Assembly: GCA_017479985.1 (NCBI GenBank)
Contig: JAFVBL010000031.1
Span: 1-58,554 of the forward strand
Length of the DNA stretch: 58,554 nt
Direction of reading: 5' to 3'
Source of the DNA: Alphaproteobacteria bacterium
GTDB taxonomy: Bacteria; Pseudomonadota; Alphaproteobacteria; RF32; CAG-239
In this document: positions 2,239 to 7,159 of the stretch, piece by piece
Layout of the letters: every line of letters begins with the position of its first letter
How positions within the stretch are numbered: position 1 is the first letter of the stretch
Notes under the pieces: generated by a model
Told to the model about the DNA's origin: nothing
The model's input: only the letters and a program-made list of their open reading frames with translations
Databases searched by the model: none
Made by a program: the position numbers and the translations under genes

Positions 2239-3177
2239 ATGAGTACGGATAATTTAGAAAATCAGGCAAGCAATAATATTTTTGAGGCGTATGTGAAGGC
2301 TCTTCGAAATTACTTTAATTTCAAGGGGCGGACTTCCCGATATGATTATTGGGGATTTTGGTTGACCGATATGTTGGTCATTATAATTTTTTCCGTTTTA
2401 AGCGTGTTTTTGAAAGAAACGCCGGCTTTTTCGTCATTGTCGGATAATTTGAAACAAGCATACGGTTTGTTGCTGATTATCCCGAGAATTGCCGCCATTG
2501 TTCGGCGTTTTCACGATACAAACAAAAGTGCCGTCAAATGGATTTTATTGCCGGTTGTGGTATCTTTTCTGTTTTTGTCTGGTATCGTTGCCGTTATAAC
2601 AGATAAAAGTACAGTTTCGATTTGGGCTTCGATGTTGGTTTTGGTATTGATTGTCGGTCTTTGGGTTTGCTTGTTTCGGCGCGGTTTGCCGGAAGATAAT
2701 AAATACGGACCGGCGATTGCGGAAAATAAGGGACAGCATAACAAAGGTATTATTATACCGATTGTTGCGTGGATTATTCCGATTATCGCAGTGCTCTTGG
2801 TCGGTGCAATCGGCGGCTACTCAAAAGCGATGACAGTACATAAGGCCGACCGGACGGCAACATCGGTTTATCGCTTGTTGGGCAGTGCCAAAGGGTTGAA
2901 CGGAGAAACTCCGATTGTTGAAGAAAATCAGGAAGGACGTACGGGAGAGGTTCTGCTGAAAGGTATGATACCTCTGGGCGGTGAAATGAATATCCGACGT
3001 GTGAACGGTTTGTATACGGTAACGCTTGATGAGGTATCGCAGGCAGGCTGTGAGGCTTTGTTTAAGCATAACTGGAGTGAATTGCCGGAATTTATCGGAT
3101 TGCAAATACAAGGTAAGACCGACTGCACAAGTTGTACGGAACAGAATCCTTGCACGCTTGAGTGGATATATAAATAA
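2239..3177 (+). CDS. DUF805 membrane protein with pilin-like C-terminal domain
   Basis: The 312-residue protein begins with a DUF805 (YhaH-like) domain: FNFKGRTSRYDYWGFWL near residue 30, then hydrophobic helices and RRFHDTNKSAVKW, the family hallmark. A further helix near residues 172-194 leads to a roughly 115-residue tail that is probably extracytoplasmic. This tail has paired cysteines near its end (AGCEALF and CTSCTEQNPC) and a spacing that resembles the disulphide region of type IV pilin-like proteins. ATG 2239 is chosen over 2173 because GGAG lies 7 bases upstream and the promoter overlaps 2173. The stop overlaps the next start (TAATG). DUF805 is firm; the pilin resemblance is by eye. 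Confidence 0.75.
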   Translation: MSTDNLENQASNNIFEAYVKALRNYFNFKGRTSRYDYWGFWLTDMLVIIIFSVLSVFLKETPAFSSLSDNLKQAYGLLLIIPRIAAIVRRFHDTNKSAVKWILLPVVVSFLFLSGIVAVITDKSTVSIWASMLVLVLIVGLWVCLFRRGLPEDNKYGPAIAENKGQHNKGIIIPIVAWIIPIIAVLLVGAIGGYSKAMTVHKADRTATSVYRLLGSAKGLNGETPIVEENQEGRTGEVLLKGMIPLGGEMNIRRVNGLYTVTLDEVSQAGCEALFKHNWSELPEFIGLQIQGKTDCTSCTEQNPCTLEWIYK

Positions 3178-3788
3178 TGGTTAAAGTAATCGGAATTATC
3201 GGTGACAGTATTGCGCACGGCTTTTATGATGCCGAGGATTTGGGCTGGGTAGCGCGTTTGGGGCGTCTTATTTTGCAAACGCGCACAGGTGAATATGTGT
3301 TTAATAATATGGCGCAATCAGGAGATAATATTGCCGATGCATATCATCGCGCGGTTACGGAAGTCGGCTCGCGGCATTTTGATTTAATTATGGTCAATGT
3401 TGGAATTAACGATTTGCGTCGCCGCATAAACAGCGATATGCAACTTGATTTCTCGGAAGGTGCGCGCATAATGTATTGGCAAAAACTTTTGGCTTTTTTG
3501 CTTACGACTGATGCCAAAATCGTGGTGACTGATCTGTTGCCTGTGGTGGAAGAAAAATATACCGAAGATGCGTCGCTTGTGCGCTATAACAGCGATGTCG
3601 AGCGTTATAATGAAATAATTCGCGATATCTGTGCCGACTTTGGAGTGCCGTTTTTGGCGCGCTATGCGGTATGGAAAAATCGTAATTTGCCGGAATTGTA
3701 TCAAGATGCAACGCACCCGAATGCGCAAGGTCATCAGATTTTGGCGGAAGAAATATATGCCTTTTTGCAAGAACAAAGATTGATTTAG
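3177..3788 (+). CDS. SGNH/GDSL-family hydrolase
   Basis: The 203-residue protein has the SGNH blocks in order: GDSIAHG with the nucleophile Ser near residue 11, a Gly in the QSGDN segment, GIND near residue 81, and DATHPN with the catalytic Asp-x-x-His near residues 183-186. Such enzymes hydrolyse esters (lipase, thioesterase or acyl-esterase). No signal peptide is visible, so it is probably cytoplasmic. It overlaps the DUF805 gene by one base (TAATG), so the two are probably co-translated. The substrate cannot be told from sequence; an acyl-carrier-like gene follows 100 bases later, which is at least compatible with acyl ester chemistry. Confidence 0.85.
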   Translation: MVKVIGIIGDSIAHGFYDAEDLGWVARLGRLILQTRTGEYVFNNMAQSGDNIADAYHRAVTEVGSRHFDLIMVNVGINDLRRRINSDMQLDFSEGARIMYWQKLLAFLLTTDAKIVVTDLLPVVEEKYTEDASLVRYNSDVERYNEIIRDICADFGVPFLARYAVWKNRNLPELYQDATHPNAQGHQILAEEIYAFLQEQRLI

Positions 3789-4278: not shown

Positions 4279-4303
4279 TATAGAGCGTGACATCTTCTGC
4301 CGC

Positions 4304-4798
4304 TTAATCCAATAAACCGCAATATCGGATATTTGCCGGCGTTTCCGGAGAATAATAGTTCTCTGGCATAGCTTCTTTGCCGCCGTCAAATTTGACAATC
4401 CAATTCAGATTGCCGCCGCGGGCAAAATACGAGCCTTTCAAAAGCGGTTTATCCATAACACGCAGCTGAGCATTGAGGTCATCTTGAAGTTTGTAAACTT
4501 CGAGCCAGATATTCCGATCGGGCAGACGGTTCTGATTGGCTTGATGACGGAGTAAATCCTCATCTTGATTCAGTTCAAGATACCAGTTGCCGGCAAACGG
4601 GAAAATACCAATCGGATTCATTTCTCGGCCTTTGTCAAAGGGCAGACGATACGGCACACCGTGAACGAGACACAGAAGGTCGAACTTTTTCGGCAGAAAA
4701 TCAGGATTTTCCCGTTGTTCGAGTTGTAAATCGCTGACGGTAATCCCGTTCAAATACATTTCGCGCAGAATTTGCACAATTTTTTCTTTTTTGTTCAT
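4304..4798 (-). CDS. Hypothetical protein, 164 aa
   Basis: Not recognised. The product is soluble, mixed alpha/beta, with a charged N-terminal helix and a central segment rich in Asn, Leu and aromatic residues. It has no signal peptide. The start ATG at 4798 has only a weak purine-rich upstream stretch. It shares the terminator at 4236-4278 with the convergent ACP-like gene, and a 140-base gap separates it from the divergent gene at 4941. Confidence 0.7.
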   Translation of the reverse strand: MNKKEKIVQILREMYLNGITVSDLQLEQRENPDFLPKKFDLLCLVHGVPYRLPFDKGREMNPIGIFPFAGNWYLELNQDEDLLRHQANQNRLPDRNIWLEVYKLQDDLNAQLRVMDKPLLKGSYFARGGNLNWIVKFDGGKEAMPENYYSPETPANIRYCGLLD

Positions 4799-4940
4799 AA
4801 GCTAGAATAATTGGTGAAACCATAATTGTAAATGTTTGTTTCAGAATAGCATAAATTTGCCAAAAGTCAAGTTTTGCTGTTCTTTCAGGTATCTGGAAAT
4901 TTTTGTATTTGCATATATTTAAATGCACACGGGAGGAAAG

Positions 4941-6708: not shown

Positions 6709-6925
6709 TTGCAATTTATAAGGTTTGTTTTAATATAACATTTGCCGGCGAGAGGTCGTCGGCGGAGTGTCACAACTCCACGAATAAAAAAATACTCCTC
6801 TGTTGGTGGGGAGCCGGCGGAATATATTGAATACGCCGGACTGATTATTCGCAGTTGTGAACTCCCGACCACTTTTTCGAGTGGTCGCTTTTGTTTTAAT
6901 TTAACAAATTAAGGAGTTCTGAACG
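6709..6925 (+). promoter_or_regulatory. Structured leader of the HTH unit, copy 1
   Basis: Promoter-like TTGCAA (6709-6714), 16 bases, TAATAT (6731-6736). Then come a GGAGT/ACTCC hairpin (6764-6779), a CTCC...GGAG hairpin (6795-6812), CCGGCG/CGCCGG (6814-6839), and CGACCACT/AGTGGTCG (6866-6887) followed by a T-rich run like an intrinsic terminator. GAACTCC (6859-6865) is exactly complementary to GGAGTTC (6913-6919), which contains the Shine-Dalgarno of the HTH gene; it can also pair through ACTCC with GGAGT at 6764. The leader recurs at 19775 and, inverted, at 24224. A riboswitch- or attenuator-like role is inference from these alternatives. Confidence 0.7.
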
Positions 6926-7159
6926 ATGATAAACAACACAATAACCTTCAAACAACAAAATCTGAAAGAAATCGGACACGCATTATGGTTGGCACGACAG
7001 GAAAAACCTCTGTTTATCTATCAGGTTGCCAAACGCGCAAGAGTACCGATTGATATGATTGACGTAATGGAATTGGGGAAAGCCGTTGATGAATATAATC
7101 TGCGGAAATTACTCAAATTTTATGGTAAAAAAATGCGCATCGTGTTTGAAGAAAAGTGA
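6926..7159 (+). CDS. Small XRE-like helix-turn-helix protein, copy 1
   Basis: The 77-residue protein has the layout of a single XRE/Cro-type HTH domain: IG-LW-R-EK in helix 1, VAKRARVP as helix 2 and turn, IDVMELGK as recognition region, and LRKLLKFYGKKMRIVF as the final helix and strand. It probably binds DNA as a dimer. It is translated from AAGGAG behind the structured leader. It is 97% identical to the copy at 19992 (nearly all positions) and about half identical to the copy at 23981. It converges with the kinase of the TerY-P triad, 14 bases away. Autoregulation of its leader is plausible but unproven. Confidence 0.8.
   Translation: MINNTITFKQQNLKEIGHALWLARQEKPLFIYQVAKRARVPIDMIDVMELGKAVDEYNLRKLLKFYGKKMRIVFEEK

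Follow-up and report, generated by a model that had tools for sequence, protein, structure and literature searches.

Three copies of a unit made up of an RNA leader and a small HTH gene lie in the window, by which we mean the whole 58,554-nucleotide stretch of alphaproteobacterial DNA that was analysed, and the leader of this unit is a structured RNA with strong covariation. Judged from comparative sequence evidence, this leader is probably an antisense RNA of the C4/IsrK type that forms the 5′ part of the very mRNA it targets, with a core that is a divergent relative of sRNA-Xcc1. The units occupy positions 6709-7159 (+), 19775-20219 (+) and 24411-23981 (−) of a genome (G000) of 1.18 Mb in 43 contigs. 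The three copies reported in the initial annotation are thus real, with the leader edge of copy 3 at 24411 instead of 24400.

The left edge of the repeated unit is formed in copy 1 by the promoter-like boxes TTGCAA (6709-6714) and TAATAT (6731-6736), which are spaced by 16 nt within a stretch common to copies 1 and 2; these boxes are a by-eye reading and were not flagged by a promoter scan. On the same strand they are followed by a hairpin, P1 (6744-6763), and by a 5′ element resembling a1b1 (6764-6787), which comprises GGAGU, UCACAACU and CGAAUAA, forms helices 2 and 3 and has its partner at 6845-6865. A CUCCUC strand (6795-6800) can pair with the GGGGAG (6808-6813) of the C4-like core. The core (6805-6872), assigned as an sRNA-Xcc1 homologue from covariance-model matches and covariation, consists of an outer helix, a hairpin with the loop GAAUAUAUUGAAUA (6820-6833), a second hairpin (6840-6855) and an a′ strand (6853-6865). 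A predicted intrinsic terminator with its T tract (6866-6897) has a 9-pair stem (6866-6887) and then CTTTTGTTTT. The Shine-Dalgarno sequence GGAGUUC (6913-6919), the putative a2-like target, is complementary to GAACUCC of the core and precedes the gene for a 77-aa protein of the Cro/C1-type HTH family (6926-7159). Copy 2 carries its leader at 19775-19991 (+), with the core at 19870-19938 and the terminator stem at 19932-19953, and encodes a 75-aa protein (19992-20219, +). Copy 3 is inverted, with the leader at 24225-24411 (−), the core at 24275-24342 and an 80-aa protein at 23981-24223 (−). In copy 3, pairing between the 5′ element and the core of the same leader is weak (−18.7 kcal/mol, compared with about −31 to −37 kcal/mol for the other five G000 copies tested), and the copy 3 leader looks as if it were recombined or decaying.

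The HTH assignment was obtained through family members: among 16 of these, Pfam gave 9 matches to HTH_25, 4 to HTH_31, 4 to HTH_19 and 2 to HTH_3 at E up to 0.01. The copy 1 protein alone had no Pfam match over the cut-off, and the sub-cut-off matches of the three copies taken singly, which included Anti-RecBCD_p2 and HTH_25, were not accepted. A PHROGs search with the three proteins returned weak unnamed families or none. An AlphaFold model of copy 1 made with no alignment had a pLDDT of 55.9 and was set aside.

Over aligned positions, copies 1 and 2 are 95% identical in the leader, 96% in the coding DNA and 97% in the protein, and they are alike from the promoter-like boxes through the stop codon. 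Copy 3 has kept the leader and carries a diverged gene, with identities for leader, coding DNA and protein of 91, 54 and 40% to copy 1 and of 87, 53 and 39% to copy 2. Flanks outside the unit show 40-48% identity among the copies. The proposal that the leader is more conserved than the protein therefore holds for the pairs 1-3 and 2-3 only, because copies 1 and 2 are near-identical across the whole unit. The leader identity of over 90% estimated for copies 1 and 3 was confirmed, and the estimate of about 48% for the protein core was a little high (45% over 67 aa, 40% globally). A leader search of G000 gave nine matches with E-values from 2.5e-110 to 7.7e-28. Leader and coding DNA were then compared across 62 complete copies from 18 genomes, and the leader showed the higher similarity in 117 of 160 pairs within a genome and in 1675 of 1731 pairs between genomes. 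The trend can therefore be generalised only partly; one G003 copy shows the reverse against six other G003 copies (proteins 89-96%, leaders 78-88%).

At every band of protein identity, leaders from one genome are about 3 to 9 points more alike than leaders from different genomes. This would be in line with a cassette of leader and gene whose leaders resemble each other mainly owing to recent copying or gene conversion, an explanation that we consider rather unlikely. The near-identity of copies 1 and 2 between unrelated flanks also speaks for it, as does the site of copy 1. This copy sits between conserved neighbours, and the neighbour gene is present in 26 of 27 genomes. Among 13 relatives besides G000, the site is empty with a conserved junction (by eye) in 11, ambiguous in G019 and filled in G003 by a unit of another HTH subfamily (leader 73%, protein 39%). 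Since filled and empty sites both occur, the units come and go or are exchanged. To this extent the suggestion of a mobile element boundary is partly supported; no terminal repeats, inverted ones included, were seen by eye or in the self-comparison, which counts against copying. Copying also leaves unexplained two findings described below, namely the copy-specific paired changes and a core that is still conserved well beyond the genus.

Several further repeats were seen in the assembly. One dispersed repeat occurs at 23681-23788 and 28399-28504 of the window, with 85 and 97% identity in two stretches, and a related-looking repeat (by eye) interrupts an HTH gene in contig C38 (L023). Contigs of the assembly break inside units, namely at L019 (C13) and at the ends of C7, C38, C4 and C43. 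C13, which has 4674 bases and a 133-base terminal overlap, is probably an assembly cycle through the repeat. Nine protein matches were found in G000, two of which are both ends of one 4674-base contig.

The leader of the unit folds with −70.3 kcal/mol (z −6.67 against 200 shuffles). To assess covariation, an alignment of 30 leaders (A2) was used. The long-range fold, in which the 5′ element pairs with the core, has 49 pairs; 91.0% of the cells are paired, compared with 81.5% after shuffling, and double-sided changes occur in 25 of the 49 pairs (shuffled 16.1), giving a covariation of 0.369 (shuffled 0.196). None of 500 shuffles reached the observed values, and versions of the fold that were slid along the alignment had at most 48.6% of cells paired. 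Helix 3 (CGAAUAA:UUAUUCG in copy 1) shows double changes in 7 of 7 pairs, and hairpin P1 in 6 of 8 pairs with 96.3% of cells paired. Helix 4, formed by the CUCCUC strand, is paired in 97.8% of cells and has no double-change pair. The terminator helices 6 and 7 are poorly aligned, with 69 and 72% of cells paired. An alternative core fold is paired in 94.4% of cells, and 0 of 500 shuffles were as high; its three outermost pairs are formed in 16, 17 and 24 of the 30 sequences. As both folds use the CUCC strand, they are mutually exclusive. Selection on the leader RNA, one of the possibilities initially raised, is thus supported by helices that covary beyond shuffles and slides, and the covariation check suggested for the leader stems had a positive outcome.

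Two exclusive folds with paired changes in both, together with an outer core helix that overlaps the 5′ strand of the terminator, would also be expected of an attenuator acting only in cis. Here the leader would pick between two folds during transcription, the core helix serving as antiterminator in one and the 5′ element pairing together with the terminator in the other, and no antisense action would take place on the ribosome-binding site or in trans. We regard such an attenuator as possible although unlikely. Blocking of the terminator would depend on the outer core pairs, which are formed in just the 16, 17 and 24 of 30 sequences given above; this does not favour an attenuator, and the duplex tests described below bear on the question in both directions.

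sRNA-Xcc1 (RF02221) is a stable RNA of about 88 nt. No Rfam family matched the window at its cut-off. With a relaxed threshold, full-length RF02221 matches were obtained for L051 (31.4 bits), L001 (26.1 bits) and L037 (25.6 bits), against a cut-off of 53, and none was found in L029, L045, L047, L048, L050 and L007. Unrelated hits in those tables had E-values just as good as the direct RF02221 ones (0.026 to 0.9). Other named RNA families gave scattered weak hits only and were rejected. We therefore turn to a comparison in both directions, which is a stronger test than the direct scores. In two overlapping samples, RF02221 had matches at E 0.001 or better in 27 of 190 genomes of Alphaproteobacteria (over cut-off in 3) and in 58 of 398 genomes of Pseudomonadota (over cut-off in 39), and in 0 of 14 control genomes in either case. 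A covariance model, R1, that was built from 30 cores, all of the window's genus, placed its match where RF02221 does in 20 of 30 loci found with RF02221, with E-values from 4e-10 to 0.03 (below 0.001 in 14), and missed 10; it also finds L048, L050 and L051. On these model matches, the core is judged to be a divergent relative of sRNA-Xcc1 that falls below the cut-off of that family. The earlier view that no named family has this layout was therefore wrong, the core being related to RF02221 and the layout being that of a C4 antisense RNA.

Like sRNA-Xcc1, the core has an outer helix that encloses a hairpin with an AAUA...GAAUA loop and a second hairpin, and it occurs in multiple copies; canonical sRNA-Xcc1 loci in turn also show a 5′ element and a match to the ribosome-binding site. 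The two differ in score, copies of the window type reaching 26 to 31 bits against the cut-off of 53. Arrays of cores were observed in L306 (four, 2964-3736, −) and L321 (three, 4279-4830, +), similar to a cluster of five sRNA-Xcc1 homologues described for Xylella in the accessible part of PMC12189769. At the canonical locus L130, two TwoAYGGAY RNA matches lie nearby (2372-2494, −, and 2791-2857, +). According to the portion of PMC12444791 that could be consulted, sRNA-Xcc1 lies upstream of symE and in the same direction in Xanthomonas integron cassettes, and its authors suggest a regulatory mechanism there that is unlike SymE/SymR. Control of the downstream gene has therefore already been hinted at. 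Other literature, as far as its accessible text goes, treats sRNA-Xcc1 as a trans-acting or virulence-linked sRNA.

The order of parts recalls an immunity system of phages. In phage P1, the C4 antisense RNA silences the antirepressor, and the P1 record is annotated in the order a1, b1, C4, a2, b2 and icd, which is the order of the parts found here. In C4 of P1 and P7 (RF01695, with a1b1 as RF03163), a1b1 precedes a two-hairpin antisense RNA inside an outer helix, and a2b2 lies before the next gene. In the window's genus, the upstream element is complementary to the RNA (−29.8 vs −21.3 kcal/mol); downstream, all copies share a GGAGUUC that can pair with the core, and no b2 was seen. The target differs: in the window it is a gene of the Cro/C1-type HTH family whose Shine-Dalgarno site is common to all copies, and antirepressors were found only at other core loci. 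P1 C4 lacks the GAAUA loop of the window core and carries a UUCG tetraloop. The 5′ end of C4 is made by RNase P; by eye, no clear RCCA was seen after the core helix. Direct membership in the C4 family was rejected because no significant model match was obtained either way: scanning seven leader loci for RF01695 with E-values up to 1 allowed gave nothing, 20 RF02221 loci had no match at the RF01695 cut-off, R1 matched P1 C4 with E 1.2, and P1 C4 was not among the RF02221 matches.

A second likeness is to IsrK and orf45-anrP of the Salmonella prophage Gifsy-1. In the text of PMC4825925 available to us, a 5′ RNA acts on a read-through mRNA, whose leader adopts two exclusive structures, one of them translationally inactive, that decide translation; for the CI RNA of P4, the same text describes the complementary sites seqA and seqC upstream and downstream of CI. 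IsrK has its own terminator and acts in trans, whereas no such terminator was seen between the 5′ element and the core of the window leader. The number of copies is reminiscent of the Group 1 sRNAs of Acinetobacter baumannii, with many C4-like copies in a single genome and C4-like processing there; these were called C4 by an Rfam search in the parts of PMC5320573 that were accessible, unlike the RNAs described here.

To measure the specificity of the pairing between the 5′ element and the core, the 3′ 36 bases of each core were paired with their own upstream 150 bases and compared with those of other copies, using 2000 permutations. Once G016 and two G000 cores of another class are set aside, the genus has 90 places; the HTH set contained 72 of these, chosen by an ORF of at least 30 aa and an ATG-plus-Shine-Dalgarno rule. 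The G127 set was used without L102, which has another gene type, and the mixed alphaproteobacterial set contained 26 of the 30 loci L056-L085, with L058 and L084 moved to G127 and L083 and L085 dropped as further copies of G084 and G208. Own pairs were more stable than pairs with other copies in the HTH genus (−29.8 vs −21.3 kcal/mol; 70 of 72 copies), in G016 (−25.7 vs −15.4; 18 copies), in G127 (−27.8 vs −17.3; 12), in the canonical RF02221 loci (−37.6 vs −28.2; 30) and in the mixed alphaproteobacteria (−33.7 vs −23.9; 26), each with 0 of 2000 permutations. The own partner was best or tied in 30/70, 16/18, 9/12, 20/30 and 15/26 cases, respectively. Averaged over the copies of a set, the match between 5′ element and core is thus copy-specific in each of the five. 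Among the aligned copies, no two from one genome have both the same second-hairpin loop and the same a′ strand (6/6 G000, 8/8 G003 and 12/12 G017 cases, alignments by eye), and three G000 copies share the second-hairpin loop alone. This uniqueness could reflect neutral paired drift or selection for privacy.

A different pattern was obtained for the core and the ribosome-binding site. Locus-by-locus matches were observed in the canonical set (−20.0 vs −14.8 kcal/mol, 25 of 30 usable, 0/2000, own best in 2/25), in the mixed set (−18.2 vs −13.8 kcal/mol, 18 of 26 usable, 0/2000, own best in 7/18) and in G127 (4/2000; 10 of 12 copies). No copy-specificity was detected in the HTH genus and in G016 (842/2000 and 1146/2000), so the ribosome-binding site is one shared target within each of these families; it is identical in 8 of 8 G003 copies. 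Six G000 cores pair with HTH sites with means of −14.2 to −15.6 kcal/mol and with other starts with −8.5 to −11.9 kcal/mol. As control starts, we used the 33 of 48 listed window ORFs that have a Shine-Dalgarno-like motif, and 0, 0, 0, 6, 1 and 2 of these paired as well as the HTH sites with the respective core. With 40 HTH copies used, HTH cores gave −13.95 with HTH sites and −8.71 with pilin sites, and pilin cores gave −13.45 with their own and −11.52 with HTH sites; the G127 cores show the opposite trend (−8.45 with their own sites, −10.42 with HTH sites).

These results argue in part against attenuation in cis alone, for average complementarity to the core is higher at the Shine-Dalgarno than at the 33 other window starts, HTH and pilin sites pair more strongly with cores of their own subfamily, and the ribosome-binding site matches locus by locus in the wider sets. 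Two findings speak for an attenuator: the CUCCUC strand can sequester the 5′ strand of the core, with locus-specificity among the mixed alphaproteobacteria (0/2000) and none in the other four sets (86 to 908 of 2000), and within the genus copy-specific pairing is confined to the leader.

An antisense leader, as preferred by us, may work as follows. Transcripts would often end at the terminator and give a short RNA. In the read-through mRNA, the GAACUCC strand of the core would hide the Shine-Dalgarno and block translation of the HTH gene, and capture of the core by the 5′ element would release it. The core may perhaps act in trans as well, on sister mRNAs that share the ribosome-binding site. 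Copies would keep a private match of 5′ element and core through paired changes, and all would retain the same ribosome-binding site. In the HTH genus, the predicted accessibility of the Shine-Dalgarno rises from 0.08 to 0.32 when the 5′ element is included (68 of 72 copies, p 9e-9). It changes by more than 0.1 when the element is present in 41 copies upwards and in 6 downwards, and without the element the Shine-Dalgarno is predicted to pair with the core at 0.87. This effect was absent in three other sets. The values in the HTH genus fit an antisense core with the 5′ element as its antagonist, in line with the work on IsrK (PMC4825925, in the text available).

The initial annotation had also linked the leader to HTH genes. 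R1 found 150 places in 25 of the 27 genomes of the genus, 26 of them in G016, and sequence was taken for 112 of these (92 outside G016 and 20 in G016; 38 were left out). An HTH gene (about 75 aa, Cro/C1-type) lies within 420 bases at 82 of the 92 places outside G016. Five of the other ten stop at a contig edge and five have no HTH gene; two of these five are G000 cores of another class, with an EcoRI-type methylase (C41) and an unnamed gene (C11) downstream. At G016 places, a type IV pilin-like N-terminal motif is encoded downstream in 19 of 20 cases and HTH in 0 of 20, and Pfam N_methyl was slightly under its cut-off for two G016 genes. These loci (L146-L165) appear to be a multicopy pilin-like family with variable tails under the same leader. 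The linkage to HTH genes therefore stands within the genus outside G016 and does not extend to the core elsewhere, which precedes pilin-like genes, antirepressors, SymE and others. G000 also has the cores L095 (C41), L096 (C11) and L074 (C42) of the same superfamily; genes downstream of its other cores include the EcoRI-type methylase (Pfam) and glycosyltransferase-like and membrane-protein-like genes (by eye), and the C42 core was assigned no clear gene. Copies in G127 (L058, L084, L097-L101, L104) precede small, similar-looking proteins of about 86-120 aa, one of which was tested and had no Pfam match.

Downstream ORFs of the 30 fetched canonical loci of RF02221 were taken by a fixed rule, which yielded one at 28 loci and none at L137 and L140. 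At E 0.001, Pfam named 12 of these 28 ORFs, with Bro-N in five (L130 below cut-off), Phage_pRha and SymE in two each, and KilA-N, P22_AR_N and Rap1a in one each; 16 had no family. For L139, only the longer start was used in the Pfam scan, and at L122 the first ORF has no family and the second is P22_AR_N.

This range of genes also bears on two further explanations. That the leader is a DNA operator for the HTH protein would suit a gene for a putative DNA-binding protein after the leader. The same core, however, lies upstream of pilin-like genes in G016 and of other genes elsewhere, and conservation tracks RNA pairing. A binding site for the HTH protein, as had been suggested, is not needed because the variable positions change as complementary pairs, and we consider an operator most improbable. 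A ligand-binding riboswitch with the GAAUA...GAAUA loop as its pocket could account for one highly conserved loop, for two exclusive folds and for the overlap with the terminator, but is very unlikely as well: the named downstream genes have no common pathway, and the strands of the 5′ element and the core vary freely in pairs.

Phage-related loci were also found. Searching for the loop as a sequence pattern yielded 2 stretches from viral_contigs and 85 from genome_contigs, and R1 was run on 15 of these 87. A full-length core was found in 10, with a best match of 23 to 46 bits each, scores that are raised because the pattern contains part of the core; L280, L310, L313, L331 and L348 had only partial, chance-like matches of 13.6 to 16 bits. 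Among these pattern-picked loci, viral contig L281 (R1 E 3.6e-6, RF02221 E 0.17) and the Methylovulum contig L337 (R1 E 1.2e-7, RF02221 E 0.0038) have the loop GAAUAUAUUGAAUA in a core; downstream of the core lie Bro-N and Rha genes in L281 and a KilA-N gene in L337. The leader of L121 matched 13 phage records in all, one of them Pasteurella phage Pmp1, where a match of 75.8% that covers 79% of the query extends up to and over the start of 'anti-repressor Ant'.

The antisense-leader kind is already known; the link to sRNA-Xcc1 and the spread to multicopy genes look new within the literature searched. No proposal of a C4-type layout for sRNA-Xcc1 was found in the accessible text of PMC12444791, PMC2996969, PMC5320573, PMC2864571, PMC4825925, PMC12189769, PMC12197685 and PMC6557892; the 2011 sRNA-Xcc1 paper and most subscription journals were outside this search. 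No literature that pairs sRNA-Xcc1 with an antirepressor was found, and one published table, in its accessible part, has both sRNA-Xcc1 and C4 antisense RNA and does not link them. In the searched literature, as far as accessible, the target of sRNA-Xcc1 is unsettled, and matches occur in 58 of the 398 genomes sampled from Pseudomonadota. The layout gives this RNA a concrete candidate target, the ribosome-binding site of the next gene, with the element just upstream as the antagonist. A further idea, which we hold to be doubtful, is mutual silencing, in which paralogues (HTH, or pilin-like in G016) share the ribosome-binding site as a target, any core silences all others and the private 5′ element frees its own copy. 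If true, this would be one-of-many expression, similar to allele exclusion, by RNA alone and built from a phage-type immunity RNA. More broadly, our sequence comparisons suggest that a phage-type immunity RNA has been reused as the leader of multicopy genes, both HTH and pilin-like, in gut bacteria.
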